This document shows, one piece after another, positions 3,319-54,502 of a stretch of DNA of 54,748 bases. Numbering within the stretch: position 1 is the first letter of the stretch; each line of letters opens with the position of its first letter. This stretch comes from Candidatus Moranbacteria bacterium GW2011_GWC2_40_12 (lineage in GTDB: Bacteria; Patescibacteriota; Minisyncoccia; Moranbacterales; UBA11712), in contig LBYD01000005.1 of the NCBI GenBank assembly GCA_000995965.1, positions 1-54,748 of the forward strand, given 5' to 3'. Position numbers and translations under genes: made by a program. The notes beneath the pieces were generated by a model, which saw only the letters and a program-made list of their open reading frames with translations, was not told where the DNA came from and did no database searches.

Positions 3319-4794
3319 TTATTTTATTCTCGGAAACAAAACGTCCGTCTTTTTTTCTTCCAAGGCCTTTTTTATCTTCTTTGCTGTCTCCGGCATGAAC
3401 AGAACAAGCAGATCTGAAATAAAATCCAAGTCTGACGCTAATTTCTGCATAACTTCTTTAAATTTATCTTCATTACTTTTAACAAGCTCCCACGGCTTGT
3501 TTTCTTCAATGTATTTGTCGTCTTGGCGAATTATCTTCCAAATATAATTCAATGCGCCATTTAGCTCAATTTTTTCAATAAAATCTGAAATTTTGTCATT
3601 TGGATTTTGAACTTGATTTGGAATTTGGAATTTGGAATTTGAAATCAATTTCACGGTACGTGAAATCAAGTTTCCCAGTCCGTTCGCAAGATCCGCGTTG
3701 TATTTTTCAATCATCCGCTCCATCGTCATATCCACATCTTCGCCAAATGTTCCGGCACTCATGAGAAGATAGCGCGTGCCGTCCGCACCGAATTTTTCGA
3801 GCATCTCATCAATTGAAATCGCGTTCCCCAATGTTTTGCTCATTTTCCTTCCGCGGGACAAAATATGCCCGTGGACAAAAATCATTTTAGGAAGCTCTAT
3901 TCCGAGATGTAAGAGCATTATCGGCCAAATGGTCGCGTGAACGCGCAGAATGTCTTTCCCGATCAGCTGCACATCCGCCGGCCAAAATTTCAAAAAGCTT
4001 GGCTTTGAGGAATTGCGAGAGCTCTGCTCTCGCAAGGGAAAAGCCGAGCTTTGGAAAAAATTCGCATCTCCGTCCCAGCCCAAACCGGTCAGATAATTCA
4101 AAAACGCGTCTGCCCAGACATAAGTCGTATGTTCCTTGTCAAAGGGAAGAGTGACGCCCCAAGAAACATTTTTTCGCGAAATGGAAACATCCCGAAGCTC
4201 CTGGCTCTCAAGAAAAGACAAAATTTCTTTTTTATATTTATGCGGAGCGATCCGAAATTCATCGCTCTTTATTTTTTCAATGATTTTTTTTTGCGCCTCT
4301 CCCGACATTTTGAGCAGATAGCATTCTTCTTTCACTTTCTCGACCACGATATCATGGTCCGGACAGCGCCCGTCAATCAAATCTTTTTCGCTTTTGAACT
4401 GCTCGCAAGCGACGCAATAATATCCTTCGTATTCTCCTTTGTATATCGCCCCTTTGTCGTATAAGGTCTGCAAAGCTTTTTGGACGGAGCTTTTGTGCTT
4501 TTCATCCGTCGTGCGGATGAAATGGTCGTATTTGATATTGAGTTTCTTCCAATAATCCTTGAACTCCTGCGAAATTTCGTCGACAAAAGTCTGCGGATCC
4601 TTTTTGGCGTCTTCGGCTTTCTTTTGGATATTTAGTCCATGCTCATCCGTTCCGGTCAGGAAATATACTTCTTCGCCCCGCGACTTGCGAAACCGCGCCA
4701 AAACATCCGCCGCGATGGTCGTATACGCATGCCCGATATGCGGTTTCGCGTTGACGTAATATATTGGGGTTGTGATATAGAATTTATTTTTCAT
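3319..4794 (-). CDS. metG: Methionine--tRNA ligase
   Basis: Class I methionyl-tRNA synthetase, charging tRNA-Met in the cytoplasm. The HIGH motif is at residues 19-22 (PHIGHAYTT), the KMSKS-type motif (GRKMSKTLGN) near 316, and a single zinc knot is CVAC...CPDH. The ATG at 4794 (MKNKFYITTP) fits the family better than the TTG at 4806 used by the ORF track, although that TTG overlaps the rsmI stop as TTGA. Two stretches are absent from typical MetRS. One is [18 protein letters not shown] at about residues 247-267, encoded by a 59-bp palindrome. The other is NSKFQIPNQVQNPNDK at about 383-397, encoded by 7-bp tandem repeats. Both look like in-frame DNA insertions into loops. Confidence 0.95.
   Translation of the reverse strand: MKNKFYITTPIYYVNAKPHIGHAYTTIAADVLARFRKSRGEEVYFLTGTDEHGLNIQKKAEDAKKDPQTFVDEISQEFKDYWKKLNIKYDHFIRTTDEKHKSSVQKALQTLYDKGAIYKGEYEGYYCVACEQFKSEKDLIDGRCPDHDIVVEKVKEECYLLKMSGEAQKKIIEKIKSDEFRIAPHKYKKEILSFLESQELRDVSISRKNVSWGVTLPFDKEHTTYVWADAFLNYLTGLGWDGDANFFQSSAFPLREQSSRNSSKPSFLKFWPADVQLIGKDILRVHATIWPIMLLHLGIELPKMIFVHGHILSRGRKMSKTLGNAISIDEMLEKFGADGTRYLLMSAGTFGEDVDMTMERMIEKYNADLANGLGNLISRTVKLISNSKFQIPNQVQNPNDKISDFIEKIELNGALNYIWKIIRQDDKYIEENKPWELVKSNEDKFKEVMQKLASDLDFISDLLVLFMPETAKKIKKALEEKKTDVLFPRIK
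3608..3646. repeat. Heptanucleotide tandem repeat inside metG
   Basis: The unit GAATTTG repeats with a 7-bp period for about three to four copies, with degenerate units on each side. Because 7 is not a multiple of 3, three units are read as a 7-residue peptide repeat (KFQIPN...). The stretch lies in a region where other MetRS proteins have no matching residues. Confidence 0.75.
3994..4052. repeat. 59-bp double-hairpin palindromic element, in frame in metG
   Basis: The outer stem AAAGCTTGGCTTT pairs with AAAGCCGAGCTTT through 13 bp with one G-T pair. The inner stem TTGCGAGAGC pairs perfectly with GCTCTCGCAA around a 3-nt loop. The length and architecture match the copy in tgt at 19753-19811. 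It is read in frame as part of MetRS. Confidence 0.9.
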
Positions 4795-4802
4795 TCTTAA
4801 GC

Positions 4803-5519
4803 TCAATAAACGATTACGACAAATTCCCCTTTATTCTTATCTCTGTTATTTCTATAAAATCCCAAAATTTCACGTATATTTCCTCTTTTGATTTCCTCGA
4901 ACATCTTCGTCAGTTCCCGTCCCACAATCAGTTTAGCATCTGGTTTCAATTTTTCCAGCAGTTCGAGGTTTTTGAGAAACCGGTAGGGCGATTCGAAATA
5001 GATAACGGGATATTTCGCTTCCGCCACTCCCCGGAAAAAAGTCTCTCTTCCCTTTTTGTGCGGCGGAAATCCGAGGAAAGAAAATTTGCTCATATTTATC
5101 CCGGCGACACTCGCAATCGCCATCACAGCCGACGCCCCCGGGATGGGAATAATTTCAATCTCTTTCCTAAGATCCGATCTTAGGATTGCCGAAGATCGGA
5201 TCTTAGGATCCAAAAGCGAAGCAATCAGCTCGTTTCCAGGATCGCTGACTCCAGGCGTTCCCGCGTCGCTCACTAGCGCGAGAGTCTTTCCATTTTCGAG
5301 ATGCTCAATGATTTTTTCCACCCTTGAGAGCTTCGAATGATGGTGATATGATAAAAGAGGTTTTTGAATTTCATACCGGTCCAATAGTTTTTTCGTGACC
5401 CGCGTGTCCTCGCACAAAATGAGGTTGGCTTCTTTGAGAATACGAAGAGCCCGAAGAGTGATGTCTTCCAAGTTGCCGATAGGGGTGGCCACGATATATA
5501 ATTTTCCGGATTTATCCAT
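4803..5519 (-). CDS. rsmI: 16S rRNA (cytidine(1402)-2'-O)-methyltransferase
   Basis: RsmI is the tetrapyrrole-methylase-fold enzyme that 2'-O-methylates C1402 of 16S rRNA from SAM. The N terminus (LYIVATPIGNLEDITLRA), CEDTRVTKKLL and SDAGTPGVSDPG are family signatures. At 238 aa it is slightly short at the C terminus. After GNELIASLL the family normally goes straight to the VVPIPGPSA block. Here about 15 residues (DPKIRSSAILRSDLR) intervene, encoded by a perfect 16-bp inverted repeat. The stop TGA overlaps a possible TTG start of metG, and the gene begins 5 nt after the kinase gene, so the three are co-transcribed. Confidence 0.93.
   Translation of the reverse strand: MDKSGKLYIVATPIGNLEDITLRALRILKEANLILCEDTRVTKKLLDRYEIQKPLLSYHHHSKLSRVEKIIEHLENGKTLALVSDAGTPGVSDPGNELIASLLDPKIRSSAILRSDLRKEIEIIPIPGASAVMAIASVAGINMSKFSFLGFPPHKKGRETFFRGVAEAKYPVIYFESPYRFLKNLELLEKLKPDAKLIVGRELTKMFEEIKRGNIREILGFYRNNRDKNKGEFVVIVY
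5162..5208. repeat. Palindromic element in frame in rsmI
   Basis: CCTAAGATCCGATCTT and AAGATCGGATCTTAGG form a perfect 16-bp stem with a 10-nt loop. The left 24 bases are identical to the palindrome after typA at 47935-47961, so this is a dispersed element with one genic and one intergenic copy. Confidence 0.85.
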
Positions 5520-8406: not shown

Positions 8407-8521
8407 GTGAATAGAATTGTGAATTCAGGATTTTGAATTGAGAATTGGAATATTGAATGTAAAATTCAGAATTCTTTATTCTTGATTCCTATTCACAATT
8501 CTGAATTCGTAATTCCTAATT
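8407..8521. repeat. Low-complexity imperfect palindrome of GAATT-type words
   Basis: The spacer between the M16 peptidase and the AI-2E gene is built of iterated GAATT/AATTC words. GTGAATAGAATTGTGAATTC at the left end is mirrored by CTATTCACAATTCTGAATTC at the right, so the transcript would fold into a long imperfect hairpin. Confidence 0.6.
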
Positions 8522-9796
8522 CTAAATATATAATATTTTCTCCAAATATCTCTTGTCCTCCACCGGCCCGATAATAGCAAGATTTAATTTATCATTCACG
8601 AATATCTCCTTCGCTACTCTCATGATATCATCTGGGCTGACTTTATCAACCCGGGCGAGAATCTTATCCGGAATTTCTATTTTCTTTTTCGCAAGTTCCT
8701 GCCCCGCCAAATATCCTGCAATGTCGTCCGAAGACTCAAGCGAAAGCGCCATCTTTCCCCGAAAATTGTCTTTTGCCTTCTGGAGCTCTTTCGGGCTTAC
8801 TTTTTTATCGCGGATTTTTTTGATTTCGCCGATAATTGTCTTCACTGTTTTTTCGATTTTTTTACGGTCTGTGTCCACTCCCGCCCTGACAGCCAAATAG
8901 CCCGAGTCAGTATAGCTTTCATATGATGCATTGATATAATACGCGAGTCCCAGTCTTTCCCGCACTGAAAGAAACAGTCGGCTGCTCATCGTTCCGCCAA
9001 GAATATTGGCCAGAACCGAAAGCGCGAAGCGGTCGGGATGGAACATGTCAAAGGCCCGCGCTCCCAGCACCAGATGGCACTGGTCGGTTTTCTTTTTCTT
9101 TATTTTCACCCGCGGCGCATTCTGTTTTTCGATGACTTTTGGCTTTTTTCCATTTGCCTTTTTCGGCATTCCCGCGAAAATTTTTCCAATCTTCCTGATA
9201 GCTTTTTGCTCTTCGATGTTCCCCGCGACGCATACAACTGTGTTCGGAGCGGTATAATTTTCCCGAAGATACTTCAAAAAATCGGGCCGTTTCAAATTTT
9301 TGATATTTTCTTTCGTTCCAATGATTTCCCATCCCGCCGGCTGGTCGCCATAGAGAAGTTCTTCAAAAATATCCCCCGCTTGGATCATCGGCGTGTCTTC
9401 ATACATATTGATTTCCTGCAAGATCACTCCCCGCTCTTTTTCTATTTCTTTCTCTTCTATTTTCGAGTTGAGATAAATGTCGGATATCACGTCAAGCGCC
9501 AAATCGAAATGTCTGGCGTCAACTTTCGCGAAGTAGGCCGTCTGTTCTTTTCCCGTAAAAGCGTTGTATTCTCCCCCGACTGCGTCGAGCTCTCCCGAAA
9601 TATCTTTTGTCTTGGGACGTTTTTTCGTTCCCTTGAAAAACATATGCTCAAGGAAATGCGAAATTCCGTTCACGCTTTTCGTTTCATATTTCGAACCGGC
9701 CGCCGCCGCCACAATGACCGCCACAGTATTCGTGTCTTTCATCGGCGCCGTCACCACCCGCAGTCCGTTTTTGAGGATAGTTTTTTTGAAATGCAT
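8522..9796 (-). CDS. M16 family zinc peptidase (processing peptidase-like)
   Basis: A 424-aa insulinase/mitochondrial-processing-peptidase-like protein. The inverted zinc motif HFLEH (ISHFLEHMFFKGT) is near residue 46, and the distal glutamate lies in ERGVILQEINMYEDTP. The length fits the standard two-domain M16B enzyme, with the second domain around LVLGARAFDMFHPDRFALSV. There is no signal peptide, so it is probably cytoplasmic. It follows pepA in the same direction across a hairpin-rich spacer. Confidence 0.93.
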   Translation of the reverse strand: MHFKKTILKNGLRVVTAPMKDTNTVAVIVAAAAGSKYETKSVNGISHFLEHMFFKGTKKRPKTKDISGELDAVGGEYNAFTGKEQTAYFAKVDARHFDLALDVISDIYLNSKIEEKEIEKERGVILQEINMYEDTPMIQAGDIFEELLYGDQPAGWEIIGTKENIKNLKRPDFLKYLRENYTAPNTVVCVAGNIEEQKAIRKIGKIFAGMPKKANGKKPKVIEKQNAPRVKIKKKKTDQCHLVLGARAFDMFHPDRFALSVLANILGGTMSSRLFLSVRERLGLAYYINASYESYTDSGYLAVRAGVDTDRKKIEKTVKTIIGEIKKIRDKKVSPKELQKAKDNFRGKMALSLESSDDIAGYLAGQELAKKKIEIPDKILARVDKVSPDDIMRVAKEIFVNDKLNLAIIGPVEDKRYLEKILYI

Positions 9797-9897
9797 GTAT
9801 TTCTTTACGAATTACTAATCCGCTTCGCTCTACGAATATACGAATGTACGAATTTTCTGTATTCGTATATTCGTACAAGATTCGTAATTCGTAAAGA
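9797..9897. repeat. Long intergenic hairpin of ACGAATA-type repeats
   Basis: TACGAATATACGAAT pairs with ATTCGTATATTCGTA, and outside it CTTTACGAATTAC pairs with GTAATTCGTAAAG. Each arm is a tandem repeat of a 7-8 bp word. It fills the whole pepA-M16 gap. Confidence 0.75.
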
Positions 9898-16968: not shown

Positions 16969-18306
16969 CTATCTCATTATTCGCTTTTTCCCAAGCCCCA
17001 GTTTTTTCCTTATCATCGAATTTTCCGAATAAGCGCGGCTGAAACGGAAAAAAAAGGGCTGTTTTCCCCCGCCGTGGGCAGATAAGATTTTTTCTCCGTT
17101 GATATTTCTTATTTCCAAAACTTTGTCCGGATGCGCCCCACCCGGCGTGACTATTTCAATTTTTGCATTTTGCCTAATGGCATTATGAACCCTCAGCTTG
17201 TTGAATCCCCTGATTTTTTCGGAAACCCCACTCTGAAGCGATCTGGATCGGAGAATCTCCCCGACAAATTGCCACGAGTTTTCCCGCTGGGATTTTTCAA
17301 AATCATTTTCCCATTTGTCTCTCCCGAACAAAAATCCGGTTGAATAGCCGCGATTTGCCAATTTCATAAGCTCTTTTTTCGCTGCTGAAGACAATTTTTT
17401 GATTTCGGCCCGGCTTTTTCCCCAATTTATTGCGTCCAATACCCTCCGATAGGATCCTGCGGCGCAAGCGACATAATAGGCGCTCTTCGTCCTTCCCTCG
17501 ATTTTGAAAGAATCGATCCCCGCCTTGGCCAGCTCGCCTAAATACTCAATCAAACAAATATCCTTGGAATTCAAAAAATATGTCCCATGCTCATCTTCTT
17601 CGATATTTGTTATCTTTGAGCCATCCGCATTCAAACTGTCCGTCCCGCTTTGAAGAACACCATGATTTTTATTTTTTATTTTTGATTTTTGACTTAGCTT
17701 ATACCTCCACCGGCACGGCTGGACGCAATCTCCTAAATTCGCACTGCGATCCTTGAACCATCGGGACAGCAGGCATCTTCCGGAATAACTCATGCACATC
17801 GCCCCATGGACAAAATATTCCAGCTCAATCCCGGGACAAATTTTCTTTATTCTTTTTATTTCCTGAAGCGTCACCTCCCGCGCGAGGATTATTCTTGAAA
17901 CCCCCTGTTTTTGCCAAAATTTGACTGCCTCGGAATTTGTCGCGTTGGCTTGAGTCGACAAATGGATTTTTATTTGCGGTGCTATTTTTTTCACCAGGCC
18001 AATGATACCGGGATCGCTTGCGATCACTGCGTCCGGTTTCACTTTTTTTATGAATTTCAAATGTTTTTTCAGTTCCGGCAGATGGCTTTCATGGGCATAA
18101 ATGTTCAAGGTGAAATATATTCTTTTGCCGAGTTTTCGCGCCACAGCTGCTGCTTTTCTCAAATTCGCCTCGCTGAAATCATTCAGCCTTGCCCTAAGAG
18201 AAAAATTCGGATGCCCGACATAAACGGCATCCGCCCCAAAATGATACGCGTATTCCATTTTCTCCAAGCTTCCGCCAGGAGCAACAAGTTCCAATTTCTT
18301 TTTCAT
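16969..18306 (-). CDS. U32 family protein (TrhP/YegQ-like, tRNA U34 hydroxylation)
   Basis: A 445-aa U32 'peptidase' family protein. Relatives TrhP/YegQ act in hydroxylation of U34 in tRNA, so the peptidase name is probably misleading. The signature ELEYFVHGAMCMSYSGRCLL lies at residues 160-180 and is followed by GDCVQPCRW. Family members continue directly to an EEDERGTY block. Here about 28 residues rich in Lys/Asn/Ser (KSKIKNKNHG...) intervene, and their DNA starts as a 7-bp tandem repeat. With tgt upstream this makes a small tRNA-modification neighbourhood. Confidence 0.88.
   Translation of the reverse strand: MKKKLELVAPGGSLEKMEYAYHFGADAVYVGHPNFSLRARLNDFSEANLRKAAAVARKLGKRIYFTLNIYAHESHLPELKKHLKFIKKVKPDAVIASDPGIIGLVKKIAPQIKIHLSTQANATNSEAVKFWQKQGVSRIILAREVTLQEIKRIKKICPGIELEYFVHGAMCMSYSGRCLLSRWFKDRSANLGDCVQPCRWRYKLSQKSKIKNKNHGVLQSGTDSLNADGSKITNIEEDEHGTYFLNSKDICLIEYLGELAKAGIDSFKIEGRTKSAYYVACAAGSYRRVLDAINWGKSRAEIKKLSSAAKKELMKLANRGYSTGFLFGRDKWENDFEKSQRENSWQFVGEILRSRSLQSGVSEKIRGFNKLRVHNAIRQNAKIEIVTPGGAHPDKVLEIRNINGEKILSAHGGGKQPFFFRFSRAYSENSMIRKKLGLGKKRIMR
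17661..17695. repeat. Heptanucleotide tandem repeat inside the U32 gene
   Basis: The sequence splits cleanly into 7-bp units GATTTTT, ATTTTTT, ATTTTTG, ATTTTTG. It is read in frame as SKIKNKN and lies in a segment missing from typical U32 proteins. Confidence 0.7.
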
Positions 18307-19194: not shown

Positions 19195-20421
<1,227 letters not shown>

Positions 20422-23967: not shown

Positions 23968-24065
23968 GGCTCTTATTTCTCCTTTTTTTAAAGAATCTTT
24001 CCGCGCTGCGGAGGAATTATACAAAAAAATAACTTCCAAATCTTTTATCTCTTATATCTCGTTTC

Positions 24066-26981
24066 TTATATTCTTTTCAGCCAGATTTTTACCGGCGCCG
24101 TCTCAAGTTCAAAAAATTCCTCAATGTCAAAGTCAGTCCCCTCGCTTTCAATGGCTCCGGTAGCCAGCGTCTCGCGGGCAATCATATCCCCGAATTTCTC
24201 GAATATCTTCGACCCCCCTTGATAGCAGATCATAATCCGGTTGTCAACTTCATAACCAGCTTTTTTCCGAAGTTCCTGGATGCGCCGGACCAGTTCACGG
24301 GCCTCACCTTCAAGGCGCAAATCATCAGAAATTACGATGTTGAGGCCTGCCATCGAATTTCCCTCTTCTTCAATGAATATGCCTGGATTTTTTTCAATCG
24401 AGCCATAAAAACCGATCTTTTTCACGTTTACCTCTTCTTTCAAAAGTTCCAGCAGTTTGTCGTCAATGATTTCATTGACCATCAGCTCCGAAAGCGGCTG
24501 GCGGACTTTGATGCCGGCTTTCGCCCTCGCGGCAAGTCCCATTTTCACAAACCGCCGCACCATTTGCATTTGTTTGTTGAGATCATCGTCAATCAATTTT
24601 TTATTTGCCTTTGGAAAATCGGAAAGATGCACGGATTCCTCTCCGGTTATATTTTTGTATATCTCCTCACTCACAAAAGGCGAGAACGGCGCCATCAACT
24701 TTGCCAGCTCAGCCAGCACAAAATATAAAGTCTCGTAGGCCCTTCTTTTGTCCTCGTCATTTTCAGATTTCCAAAACCTTTTCCTCGACCGGCGGATATA
24801 CCAATTGGAAAGATTGTCAATAAAATCCGGAAACAGCCGCGCAGTCCTTGAAATTTCATATGCTTCCATGTGATTATTCACGTTCTTTATCAAAGAATTA
24901 AGCTCGGATACGATCCACTTGTCGAGCAGGTTCGTTCCGGGTTCCGGGTTCCGGGTTCCGGGTTCAAACTTATCGATATTCGCGTATAAAACAAAAAACG
25001 AATAGCTGTTCCAAAGCATGCGAAACATGCCCTTGAAAATATCCTTGAGTTCTTCATCGTTGAAATTCAGATTCTCCCCCTCCATCAGGGGCGACTGCAT
25101 GAGATAAAAACGGAAAGCGTCGGCCCCGTAACGGTTGATGAGAATATTGGGGTCGGTGAAATTTCCGAGGGACTTCGAAAGTTTTTTGCCGTCCGCTCCG
25201 GTGATTGTCCCTGTTGTCACCGCGTTCAAGAAGCCCGGCTTTCCAAAAAGTCCGACGGAAAGTACGTGAAGGGTATAGAACCATCCACGTGTCTGGGCGA
25301 TATATTCAGAAATGAACTGGGCCGGAAATCTTTCCTCAAATTCCTCCTTGTTTTCAAATGGATAATGGAATTCGGCGAAAGGCATCGACCCCGACTCCAC
25401 CCAGCAGTCGAAAACATCGGGAATTCTTTTCATCCCGCCGCCGCATTTATCGCACTTAAACGTGATTTCATCAATCATCGGCCGGTGATAATCCTCCAGT
25501 TTCTTCCCAGACAATTCCTCGAGCTCCCCAAACGACCCGATAATTTTCAAATTATCACATTCCTTCTCTTTTCTATCTTCTTTCTTATTTCTTATTTTCC
25601 CTCCGCATTCCCAGATCGGCATCGGGTTTCCCCAATATCTTGACCGGGAAACATTCCAGTCAGGCGCAGTCTCGAGGCCATGGCCGAACCGCCCTTTTTG
25701 GAGATGCTTCGGATGCCAGCAGATTTTTTCGTTCTCCGCGAGCAATTTTTCTTTGAGCTCTGAAACTTTGATAAACCAGGCCGGCTGGGACATATAGATG
25801 AGCTTCGTATCGCAGCGGTGGCAGAACGGATAAGCATGGCTCACATTTTCTTTTTTGTAGACGAAACCTTTTTCGGATATTTCTTTCAAAATCTTGAAAT
25901 TGGCTTCCCAGACATTTTCGCCCGTCCAGTCTCCTTTGGTGAATCTTCCTTCGTCGTCCACGTTTTCGATTATGGGAAGATTGTTTTCCTTCCTGGTCCG
26001 AAAATCGTCTTCTCCGAAAGCCGGCGCGATGTGGACAATCCCCGTTCCATCATCGAGACTCACGAAATCACCGGCTACGACCCGGTATCCGTTTTTTATT
26101 TCGTGGGAAAAAACAGGCTCATATTCGATTCCCAGCAATTCCTTCCCATCCATTTCCTTTTCAACCTCGTATTCTTCCCCAAGCGTTTTGAGGCGATCTT
26201 TGGCCAAGATATATTTTTCTTTCCCCTGCCTCGCAATCACGTATTTTGCATTCGGATTCACGGCGATGGCGACATTCGCCAGAAGCGTCCAGGGCGTTGT
26301 CGTCCAAACAAGGAAAAAAATATCCGCGAAATCCTGGCCCTTCGCTTTCAATTTGAAAAAAACCGACGCGTCTTTCACCTCTTTATAGCTCGAATCCATG
26401 GCCACCTCGAAATTGGAAAGCGGCGTCGAACAGCGCGGGCAAAAAAGGGATATTCTTGAATCCTTGTAAACCAGCCCATTTTTGTGAAGCTCCGAAAACC
26501 CCCACCAGACAGACTCCATGAAAGAGCTGTCCATCGTTTTGTAGGAATTGTCGAAATCCACCCAGCGGCCAATCCGGCGCACCGTTTTTTTCCACTCGTC
26601 CGCGAACTGCAAGACGGTTTTTTTGGCTTCTTCATTGAACTTTCCGATGTTTTTTTCGATATCCCGCTTTCCTTTGTAGCTGAATTTTTTTTCGACAATG
26701 TTCTCGATGGGAAGCCCATGGGTGTCCCATCCCCACCGGCGCGGAACATGAAAACCTTTCATGGTGAAAAACCGCGGAACTACGTCCTTTGAGGTCGAGG
26801 CCAGGAGATGACCGTGATGGGGCAGGCCGGTCGCAAACGGCGGACCGTCATAAAAAGAATAAAGCTTTGCATCTTTGCGAAGCTCTAAAGATTTTTCGAA
26901 TATTTTTTCCTTCTCCCAAAATTCGAGGATTTTTTCCTCCATTTCGGGAAGAGATTGTTTCGGATTAACTGGCTTAAACAT
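24066..26981 (-). CDS. ileS: Isoleucine--tRNA ligase (eukaryote-like IleRS2 type)
   Basis: A class I synthetase of 971 aa. The first signature is PHHGHLLAST (HxGH) near residue 54, and the KMSKS-type motif is GKKLSKSLGN near 600. The GLPHHGHLL form and absence of a C-terminal zinc finger fit the eukaryote-like IleRS2 clade. The ORF-track extension of 87 residues is a shadow of the upstream glycosyltransferase. ATG 26981 (MFKPVNPKQSL) has GGAGGT eight bases upstream and overlaps the glycosyltransferase stop by 8 bp. Two in-frame insertions made of 7-bp tandem repeats are present, KIRNKKEDRKEKE near 461 and EPGTRNPEPGTN near 672. Confidence 0.95.
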   Translation of the reverse strand: MFKPVNPKQSLPEMEEKILEFWEKEKIFEKSLELRKDAKLYSFYDGPPFATGLPHHGHLLASTSKDVVPRFFTMKGFHVPRRWGWDTHGLPIENIVEKKFSYKGKRDIEKNIGKFNEEAKKTVLQFADEWKKTVRRIGRWVDFDNSYKTMDSSFMESVWWGFSELHKNGLVYKDSRISLFCPRCSTPLSNFEVAMDSSYKEVKDASVFFKLKAKGQDFADIFFLVWTTTPWTLLANVAIAVNPNAKYVIARQGKEKYILAKDRLKTLGEEYEVEKEMDGKELLGIEYEPVFSHEIKNGYRVVAGDFVSLDDGTGIVHIAPAFGEDDFRTRKENNLPIIENVDDEGRFTKGDWTGENVWEANFKILKEISEKGFVYKKENVSHAYPFCHRCDTKLIYMSQPAWFIKVSELKEKLLAENEKICWHPKHLQKGRFGHGLETAPDWNVSRSRYWGNPMPIWECGGKIRNKKEDRKEKECDNLKIIGSFGELEELSGKKLEDYHRPMIDEITFKCDKCGGGMKRIPDVFDCWVESGSMPFAEFHYPFENKEEFEERFPAQFISEYIAQTRGWFYTLHVLSVGLFGKPGFLNAVTTGTITGADGKKLSKSLGNFTDPNILINRYGADAFRFYLMQSPLMEGENLNFNDEELKDIFKGMFRMLWNSYSFFVLYANIDKFEPGTRNPEPGTNLLDKWIVSELNSLIKNVNNHMEAYEISRTARLFPDFIDNLSNWYIRRSRKRFWKSENDEDKRRAYETLYFVLAELAKLMAPFSPFVSEEIYKNITGEESVHLSDFPKANKKLIDDDLNKQMQMVRRFVKMGLAARAKAGIKVRQPLSELMVNEIIDDKLLELLKEEVNVKKIGFYGSIEKNPGIFIEEEGNSMAGLNIVISDDLRLEGEARELVRRIQELRKKAGYEVDNRIMICYQGGSKIFEKFGDMIARETLATGAIESEGTDFDIEEFFELETAPVKIWLKRI
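24932..24966. repeat. Heptanucleotide tandem repeat (GTTCCGG) inside ileS
   Basis: Four exact copies of GTTCCGG plus a partial fifth. It is read in frame on the minus strand as EPGTRNPEPGTN. Confidence 0.9.
25562..25602. repeat. Degenerate heptanucleotide repeat inside ileS
   Basis: The stretch splits into TTCTCTT, TTCTATC, TTCTTTC, TTATTTC, TTATTTT, a 7-bp period with drift. It encodes the Lys/Arg/Glu-rich segment KIRNKKEDRKEKE, which has no counterpart in usual IleRS. A related pyrimidine heptamer run follows the ileS stop at about 24029-24060. Confidence 0.65.
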
Positions 26982-29650: not shown

Positions 29651-29671
29651 AATATCCGGCACAAGCCGGAT
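29651..29671 (-). terminator. Intrinsic terminator of the SpoIID-like gene
   Basis: On the minus strand ATCCGGC-TTGT-GCCGGAT is followed by ATTTTTATTT. Confidence 0.7.
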
Positions 29672-29712
29672 ACTAAATACAATATACTAATTACCAGATA
29701 CCAGATACTAAA
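29671..29712. repeat. Heptanucleotide tandem repeat (TACCAGA/TACTAAA) after the SpoIID-like gene
   Basis: Units TACTAAA, TACAATA, TACTAAT, TACCAGA, TACCAGA, TACTAAA follow one another with a strict 7-bp period. This intergenic tract has the same period as those inside metG, ileS and the U32 gene. Confidence 0.75.
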
Positions 29713-52580: not shown

Positions 52581-53897
52581 CTAGACCACCTCTCCCACAA
52601 ACATCGGAATGGCCAGGCGCTTGCGTTTTGTTTCTCCTCTCGCGAGGAGATTTTTTCTTTGCGGAGCGTCTCCCCTGTCTCCAAGATGCTGGGAAAACTT
52701 GTTGGCCGCGAAACTGGAACCCAGATATATCGTATGCTTTCCGAATTTGTCGTTCACTTCATCCACGCCTTTGAAAAGCCGCTTCATCTCTTCGGATCTC
52801 ACGGCTTCGCCAAACAGATCAAGCTGTTTGTTTTTGTCCTCTTCGAGCTTCGAAAGCGTCACGCCGGTGGCGCGATAGAGCGTTCTGGAATTATACATCT
52901 CGTCAAAGTGAATTCTCGCGATGTTCACAATATCATTCGGCACCGAGGTAAGGCGGGAAAATTTCACTTCAATTCCCGAATAGCGGAAATTTTGGAGTTT
53001 CAGGAAAAACGAGCCGCTTTTGGCCGAAAGACTGTACCGCCGCAATTTAATGCAGGCATTCTCGATATTTTTTGAAAGCTGGGAAAAGATGAAGCCGCGG
53101 TCCCGCGAGGGCGGGGTGAAAGTCCTCACTTTCTGGATGGAGGCGTAACTTTCTTTCGATTCCGTTTCAAGCTCGAACACAAATTGGCCGTTGAGCTCCC
53201 GCCAGGTCTCCTGAATGGGTTTGGTGAATTTTTCCCTGACCCATTCTTCGTTTTTGCGCGCGAGTTCCAGAGCCGTATTGACTTTTTCTTTCTTGAGATA
53301 GGCGCTCGTCTGCGGTCCAATCCCCCAAATATCTTCGGTGTATTTTTTGGCGAGATAGCGGTGGATGGAATAGCCCGGAATGATGGTGAGACCGGAGGGT
53401 TTTTTCCATTTTGAGCCGACTTTGGCGATGGTCTTGTTGGGGCCAAGCCCGGCTGAAAAAGTGAAGCCAAGCTCCGCGTCTAAATCCGCTTTTATCTTCC
53501 CGGCGATCCTGGAATAATTCATCCGGAGGGGCCTCCGGAGTCCCGTAATGTCAGCGAAACATTCGTCGATGGAATATTCCTCGACATCGGACGTGTAGCG
53601 CCGCACGATTTCATAAAATCTTTTGGAAAGAAGACTGTAGGTTTCATAATCCGAAGGGAGAAAAACCGCGTCCGGGCAGATTTTTTTGATATCCGAAAGA
53701 CGCATGGCGCGCGTGACCCCCCGGGCTTTGGCTTCATAACTCATGGAAGCCGCGATGCCCCTTTCTTTTCCCGTGATGACGGGCTTGCCTTTGAGACGCG
53801 GATCGCGGGACTGCTCGCAGGAAGCAAAAAAGGCGTCTCCGTCAATGTGCAGGATGGCTCGAGGAAAAGAATTGATGGAAAGCGGCTGGTCTTGCAT
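52581..53897 (-). CDS. dinB: Y-family DNA polymerase (DinB/UmuC type)
   Basis: A 438-aa translesion polymerase. The catalytic acidic residues are in LHIDGDAFFASCEQ and YSIDECFADI. FSAGLGPNKTIAKVGSKWKKPSG and the HhH DIWGIGPQTSAYLKK are typical. A little-finger domain follows, and an EEDKNKQLDLFG block resembles the beta-clamp binding motif QLxLF. It starts 41 nt after lexA and shares its promoter, so it is SOS induced. The domain order is nearer UmuC/ImpB than short DinB. Confidence 0.92.
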   Translation of the reverse strand: MQDQPLSINSFPRAILHIDGDAFFASCEQSRDPRLKGKPVITGKERGIAASMSYEAKARGVTRAMRLSDIKKICPDAVFLPSDYETYSLLSKRFYEIVRRYTSDVEEYSIDECFADITGLRRPLRMNYSRIAGKIKADLDAELGFTFSAGLGPNKTIAKVGSKWKKPSGLTIIPGYSIHRYLAKKYTEDIWGIGPQTSAYLKKEKVNTALELARKNEEWVREKFTKPIQETWRELNGQFVFELETESKESYASIQKVRTFTPPSRDRGFIFSQLSKNIENACIKLRRYSLSAKSGSFFLKLQNFRYSGIEVKFSRLTSVPNDIVNIARIHFDEMYNSRTLYRATGVTLSKLEEDKNKQLDLFGEAVRSEEMKRLFKGVDEVNDKFGKHTIYLGSSFAANKFSQHLGDRGDAPQRKNLLARGETKRKRLAIPMFVGEVV

Positions 53898-53938
53898 AAC
53901 TACAAAAAGAATTTATTTTTTATCTTTTTTCTGTTTTA

Positions 53939-54502
53939 TTAGTATTTTCTCACGACCGCCGTCACGACGGCAGCGATATTGAGTTCATCTTCGGGAACAA
54001 TCGGTTTGAATTTTTTGTTGCCGGGCGCCAGCGTTATCTGTCTGCCGGACTTGCGGAGATATTTCATTGTCCAGTTCCCATCCACTTCCGCGATCACGAT
54101 ATCTCCGTTTTTGGGAGGCTTGTTTCGCTCCACCAGCACGATGTCGCCGGGTTTTATTCCGGCGTCAATCATCGAGTCTCCGCTGACTTTCAGCATATAA
54201 GTGGCTTCTTTGTTTTTGATGAGATATTCATCGAGCGTGATCGTATCGATGAGCTCTTCCTCGGCGGGAGAAGGAAAGCCGGCTTCCACCGTTCCCAAAA
54301 CCCTGGTTTCGCCGAAAATCCTTTTCGGGATAATTTTTCCGCTTGAGTCCTTGGCGACCAAGCCCGCTTCCACCATCTTGACCACCAGCTTGTAGGCCGC
54401 ATTCTTGGACTTGAATCCCAGGAGCCGGGCAATTTCACCGTAACTTGGCATCCTTTTAGCTTTGCGATAAAAAGCGATAATTTTGGCGTGGTATTTTTTC
54501 AT
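53939..54502 (-). CDS. lexA: LexA repressor (S24 family)
   Basis: A 187-aa LexA. The N-terminal winged helix (RMPSYGEIARLLGFKSKNAAYKLV) binds the SOS operator. The self-cleavage site is Ala-Gly in GTVEAGFPSP. The S24 catalytic Ser is in KVSGDSMIDAGIKPGDIVLVER and the Lys in GNWTMKYLRK. All residues for RecA-stimulated autocleavage are present. It is divergent from nothing and leads an operon with dinB, controlled by the operator in its own promoter. Confidence 0.94.
   Translation of the reverse strand: MKKYHAKIIAFYRKAKRMPSYGEIARLLGFKSKNAAYKLVVKMVEAGLVAKDSSGKIIPKRIFGETRVLGTVEAGFPSPAEEELIDTITLDEYLIKNKEATYMLKVSGDSMIDAGIKPGDIVLVERNKPPKNGDIVIAEVDGNWTMKYLRKSGRQITLAPGNKKFKPIVPEDELNIAAVVTAVVRKY

Follow-up and report, generated by a model that had tools for sequence, protein, structure and literature searches.

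Here, we show that tandem repeats in a genome of Candidatus Moraniibacteriota (Patescibacteria) expand at a period of seven bases, almost to the exclusion of any other, and that at coding sites the repeat tracts are conserved in place between relatives while their units change. The tracts lie mostly between genes, many of them as hairpin arms, and a linker of ileS that carries them in some species is equally long in species that lack them. We propose that these heptameric simple repeats persist at their sites while their wording is turned over by a length-conserving template slip of 7 nt in tolerant DNA, a reading to which we give a probability of about 0.48. The window (the whole stretch of DNA analysed, 54,748 nucleotides) is contig C5 of a rebuilt 1.14-Mb genome, here called G000, which comprises 10 contigs and has a GC content of 43.8%. 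Its nearest named relatives by IleRS, with 84% and 54% identity, belong to Candidatus Moraniibacteriota.

A lag-7 self-similarity scan of all 1.14 Mb returned 118 tracts of period 7, against 6 of period 6 and 4 of period 8; a third-order Markov shuffle of the same genome gave 4 tracts of period 7. Periods 4-6 and 8-13 hold 1 to 12 tracts each, and the other strong peaks, at period 14 (58 tracts) and period 21 (22 tracts), are both harmonics of 7. Exact runs of at least 12 matches number 21 at period 7, 3 at period 6 and 0 at period 8. G288, which belongs to the same genus, has a similar spectrum, with 147 tracts at period 7 and 9 and 8 at periods 6 and 8. An earlier note on this DNA had staked its case on 7-bp periods being commoner genome-wide than 6- or 8-bp ones, and they are. 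The window itself holds six tracts with a score of at least 12, where about 0.2 would be expected from the Markov control (4 per 1.14 Mb). The strict 7-bp period that had been noticed in metG, in a U32 gene, at both ileS sites and in one intergenic tract is present in all of them, weakly in the last (Table 1); near 24029, where a further run had been reported, only a 9-bp repeat at 24041-24060 was found. The metG tract reads ..NSKFQIPN.. on the gene strand, and the intergenic hairpin, which the earlier note had overlooked, occupies the gap between two minus-strand genes. Assembly error is an unlikely source of tracts that are shorter than a read.

Table 1. Heptamer features of the window, in window coordinates.
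Feature	Position	Strand	Description
metG heptamer tract	3616..3645	-	ATTTGGA x4.3; exact run 26 bp; period-7 score 20.5
Intergenic hairpin	8414..8522	.	GAATTNN units and their reverse complement AATTCNN
U32-peptidase-like gene tract	17666..17695	-	ATTTTTG/ATTTTTA; variable loop; with indel
ileS linker tract	24934..24965	-	GTTCCGG x4.6, perfect; EPGTRNPEPGT; own residues 760-770
Second ileS tract	25564..25597	-	AATAAGA-type (forward TTCTTAT-type), degenerate; IRNKKEDRKEK; residues 550-560
Intergenic TACNNNN tract	29670..29708	.	TACTAAA, TACAATA, TACCAGA; weak, score 12 (the threshold)

The period spectrum bears directly on ordinary slippage followed by selection, in which repeats of every period would form and only those compatible with frame and function would be retained. 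In long G000 tracts, unit similarity falls from 0.73 at lag 1 through 0.62 and 0.54 to 0.46 at lag 4; neighbouring units are thus more alike than distant ones, as slippage predicts, and this suggests copying from neighbours. The tracts are also located in tolerant DNA, and the 2007 survey of Mrazek, as represented in PMC4692102, proposes polymerase slippage at a 7-nt footprint. However, even between genes, where no reading frame has to be kept, periods 4-6 and 8-13 are nearly absent. Among isolated two-copy duplications in the genome, period 7 is not enriched over 6, 8 or 9, which places the bias in the making or keeping of multi-unit tracts; outside the called tracts, intergenic autocorrelation shows merely a trace at 7. 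The unchanged length of the ileS linker, described below, also counts against this explanation, and we regard ordinary slippage, one of two mechanisms floated in the earlier note, as unlikely.

Orthologous sites were compared with about 880 kb of G288, which is about 85% covered, and the aligned DNA is about 77% identical to that of G000, so that an unattended tract of such age should have lost its periodicity; at about 77% identity or less, the relatives are too distant to resolve single events. Among 15 coding sites at which both flanks were found, G288 has a tract at 8, compared with 0.36% of length-matched random coding windows. The units themselves are not shared: none of the nine scorable coding pairs (G288 tract score at least 9) has the same unit within one mismatch, and the mean unit distance, 2.89, is close to the 2.96 of permuted pairs. 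Examples are AATTCTC and AATACGC (45 and 45 nt), CTTTGCG and ATTTGAG (41 and 41 nt), and TATCTGG and GCATCGA (54 and 51 nt). At the orthologous U32 site, G289 has CTTTGCN where G000 has ATTTTTG, in 45 against 47 nt. The pattern is less strict between genes, where G288 has a tract at 27 of 68 sites and units are somewhat closer than permuted ones (1.96 versus 2.31). Spread of a single element predicts shared sequence at the coding sites; since this is absent, dispersal is disfavoured. The earlier view that a mechanism, not one spreading sequence, lies behind the tracts therefore gains support from the orthologous units, even as ordinary slippage and a copying reverse transcriptase lose ground. 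We found no published account of conserved sites with re-worded units.

The same behaviour is seen in IleRS across Patescibacteria. In the linker that precedes the LDKW motif (the 24934 site), the unit is GGAACCC in G000, AATCTCA in G287, CAAACTA in G290, GGAACAA-like in G302, GTTGCGG in G298, TTGGTTG in G303 and AGGAACA in a member of the Magasanikbacteria (L086); G304 has AGCTTGT, a weak eighth unit, and G289 has a small palindrome twice instead of heptamers. This linker averages 16.7 aa in 10 repeat-bearing sequences versus 16.2 aa in 20 repeat-free ones, which indicates that the tract replaces sequence and is not added to it. The description of the ileS tract as inserted where the family has nothing is thus mistaken for this site, as the family has a linker of equal length there. 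It could also be that paired insertion and deletion under selection produced the equal length at this one linker. A second site, at IleRS residues 547-560, bears AATAAGA (G000), GAGAAAA (G287), CAAAGCG (G289) and AAATCAA (G300), and is partly an extra stretch of about 14 aa common to G287 and G289. At a third, residues 919-928, three genomes have TGATATT, TTCTTAA and AATTTTT. Small palindromes (CCTAAGATCCGATCTTAGG; CCAAGGTCSGACCTTGG; GCCTGCCTACCGGACAGGCAGGC; CCCACTTCGCCAAGGCTTCGTGGG) were also noticed in gene linkers, in rsmI (window 5153-5207) and in the ileS of G289 (L154), G304 (L174) and G301 (L177); three of the four occupy the ileS linker that bears heptamers in other species.

Under a simple gene calling of our own that assigns 83% of the DNA to genes, most G000 tracts, 87 of 118, are intergenic. 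Many are inverted pairs that form hairpin arms and fill gaps between co-directional genes. Relative to shuffles, tract-bearing intergenic gaps fold with a median z of -4.3, against -1.9 for other gaps, and z falls below -3 in 75% of the former versus 30% of the latter. Strong folding and the filling of such gaps would be expected if the period itself were selected, either by a protein that binds in 7-nt steps (for example, one of cold-shock type; CspB binds one heptamer per protein, PMC4679880) or through an RNA hairpin function, with the words free to drift. But tracts also lie in the enzyme linkers of ileS, metG and the U32 gene, where a shared DNA or RNA role is not plausible, and where compared, their units differ completely between species. 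We therefore hold selection for the period to be decidedly unlikely.

The hairpins also invite a reading as REP- or MITE-like palindromes spread by Y1 (RAYT-type) transposases, in which the heptamers are arms and the genic tracts leftovers. GAATTNN hairpins stand at many gaps, there are further genuinely palindromic families with 20-50 copies, and Y1_Tnp has 6 matches in G000 and 2-7 in f1 relatives except G293, which has none. However, the genic tracts are single-armed, their units are mismatched across species at one site, and G298, G302 and G304 have ileS tracts with no match to Y1_Tnp; a Y1 transposase was accordingly rejected as a necessary cause. One palindromic family per locus, as in REP/REPIN sequences with RAYT, was not what we found, and only the intergenic hairpins resemble REP/REPIN. 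This origin seems to us quite improbable.

Two palindromic families were noticed alongside the heptamers. An element of about 60 bp (AAAGCTTGGCTTT...AAAGCCGAGCTTT) has 21 copies in G000, 13 of them inside predicted genes, including window copies at 3994-4052 (metG) and 19751-19813 (a tgt-like gene). Within genes it is read through in several frames, the commonest translation being 19 residues long, and the metG copy coincides with an alignment gap in G293 and G282. In behaviour the element is similar to the Rickettsia palindromic elements, and it seems to be a true in-frame insert. The other, a MITE-like palindrome of about 100 bp (window 9796-9897) that is rich in TACGAAT, occurs at some 50 places in G000, almost all of them intergenic.

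The vocabulary of the tracts is broad. Recurring families in G000, each with a fixed core and free positions, are GAATTNN (NNAATTC), GTAATTN, AAAATNN/ATTTTTG and ATAAGAA, and rarer units include GTTCCGG, GTTCTGC, GAACGCT and CACATAA. That units differ between tracts, as first noticed, is correct, but they do not differ each time: GAATTNN, GTAATTN and AAAATNN are among those seen again at many loci. Units are AT-rich, and in the unit lists of G000 and G288 a heptamer seldom has more than 2-3 G or C; a bias of G or C to one strand is evident in G000 (42 of 62 units, 27 expected) and weak in G288. In G000, 17 arrays have at least three exact copies; 16 of these span 25-36 bp and one 22 bp, most falling at 29-36 bp. 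The idea of one constant array length, about 32 bp, was dropped, because among degenerate tracts the detection threshold itself selects for that size.

Of the unit pairs within a genome, 21% differ by no more than one mismatch; for shuffled units the figure is 7%. A process that acts only locally would not be expected to yield families common to several loci, and unit sharing above the shuffled expectation is what a trans-acting template would give, with a reverse transcriptase (RT) or telomerase-like enzyme copying a short RNA and so writing recurring words. G000 has two RT genes. An RT was not found in every tract-bearing genome, however: RVT_1 (Pfam) has no match in G287, G289, G290, G300 or G302, and an RT was rejected as a necessary cause. 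Many unrelated units also coexist within one genome. A copying enzyme of this kind, the other mechanism proposed earlier, is disfavoured, and we consider a template in trans highly improbable.

Additionally, we looked at mismatch repair. G000 lacks a MutS_V match, as do 27 of 28 relatives; among 287 Patescibacteria, 63 have one. With two unit-specific patterns (GAATTNN and GTATNNN) serving as proxies for heptamer tracts, either was found in 4 of 59 genomes with strong MutS versus 76 of 228 others (P = 1.6e-5, ignoring phylogeny). Among sampled loci, 335 kb from 20 MutS-positive genomes hold 3 tracts, and 127 kb of same-order ileS loci hold 14. G165 has strong MutS yet 23 matches to the GTATNNN pattern. 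MutS absence is therefore associated with the tracts, is not necessary for them, and is at most permissive; loss of mismatch repair alone does not predict the number 7. At the contig end (window 52581-54502), a putative DinB/UmuC-like polymerase gene adjoins a putative LexA-like repressor gene, as judged from their translations.

Heptamers extend beyond the genus. Period 7 is present in G287, G288 and G289, with partly different vocabularies. Across 287 Patescibacteria, the pattern GAATTNN x3 GAAT occurs in 64 genomes and GTATNNN x4 GTAT in 39; read backwards, the patterns match in few. In other bacteria, mostly Firmicutes, the excess is mild: their ileS loci, 1.07 Mb in all, hold 9 tracts of period 7, 4 of period 6 and 2 of period 8, and periods divisible by 3 are just as frequent as 7. 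Tracts of TAGTGAA, TAGTTAG and CTCAACC, of similar length, were seen in or beside ileS of the unrelated L108, L118, L137, L084 and L147, which are named Firmicutes and others. A literature search for heptamers in Patescibacteria returned nothing on point.

The mechanism we favour is a slip of fixed length. Replication or repair synthesis would slip, or switch template, by an offset of 7 nt and copy the neighbouring 7-mer onward, creating tracts of 3 to 5 units and re-homogenising them after mutation. Short-range switching in inverted orientation could give rise to the intergenic hairpin versions. Events would be retained solely in tolerant DNA, namely intergenic gaps and the surface linkers of proteins, and within genes solely if frame and approximate length are kept; the outcome would resemble an in-frame insert and actually be a rewritten linker. 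That the 7-nt offset is an enzymatic property, that template switching takes place and that MutS loss is a permissive condition are steps that we infer. It is possible, though doubtful, that DNA synthesis contains a 7-nt ruler so far unrecognised, be it a polymerase, a primase or an enzyme of break processing, which continually rewrites unconstrained DNA in many Patescibacteria into heptamer arrays of about 30 bp and arbitrary wording, with linkers and intergenic regions evolving by word replacement and not by point mutation.

The tracts of G000 belong to the published class of bacterial heptameric simple sequence repeats (SSRs): 7-bp units are over-represented relative to neighbouring periods, and the tracts are mainly intergenic, have about four units and often form inverted pairs. 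Mrazek, Guo and Shah (2007), as cited in PMC4692102 and PMC4679880, found that heptanucleotide SSRs exceed other long periods in prokaryotes. We see the same excess, and we add that sites are conserved while units turn over and the linker keeps its length; the citations of that survey report no comparison of orthologous sites. The earlier note took cyanobacterial heptamers as the closest parallel. Among published parallels, the closest that we found is Xanthomonas, together with Nostoc, so the likeness is not confined to cyanobacteria. Like the heptameric SSRs of Xanthomonas (GGGAATC, (GGGANTN)n) and Nostoc (GGGGA(T/C)T) (Rehm et al. 2015, PMC4692102), those of G000 combine constant core bases with variable ones in each 7-bp unit, usually run to about four copies, are mainly intergenic, form many close inverted pairs, and occupy the same intergenic places in related species while length and sequence vary. 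In Xanthomonas and Nostoc, however, one G-rich, quadruplex-capable unit dominates the genome (PMC4692102), whereas G000 has several AT-rich families, in which such G-tracts or quadruplex capacity were not found; units in G000 are found within genes as well, and a given coding site has a wholly different unit from one species to the next. The TAACTGA repeats of Beggiatoaceae (MacGregor 2015, PMC4679880) and the cyanobacterial STRR heptamers are likewise short 7-mer arrays mostly between genes, but each is one fixed 7-mer whose single-base variants are rarely repeated, whereas in G000 the unit is free and the period fixed. The tandem repeats of Borgs, as far as PMC9879509 describes them, resemble ours in evolving rapidly, arising independently and lying also inside genes. 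What had already been published in other bacteria is the heptamer excess, the number of about four units, the variable positions and the inverted pairs. To these the present case adds a vocabulary of many words, tracts within essential-enzyme linkers and, most importantly, sites that stay in place while their units are replaced and the linker keeps its length. In Borgs, unit length is reportedly not fixed at 7.

The cause of the bacterial preference for 7-bp repeats has been a standing question since 2007. Conserved sites with re-worded units amount to a measurable process that restores the 7-base period and lets the sequence go. If our reading is true, heptamer tracts would mislead when read as inserts or mobile elements, and a large group of bacteria would be subject to a mutational force that shapes much of their spacer DNA as well as linkers in their essential enzymes.
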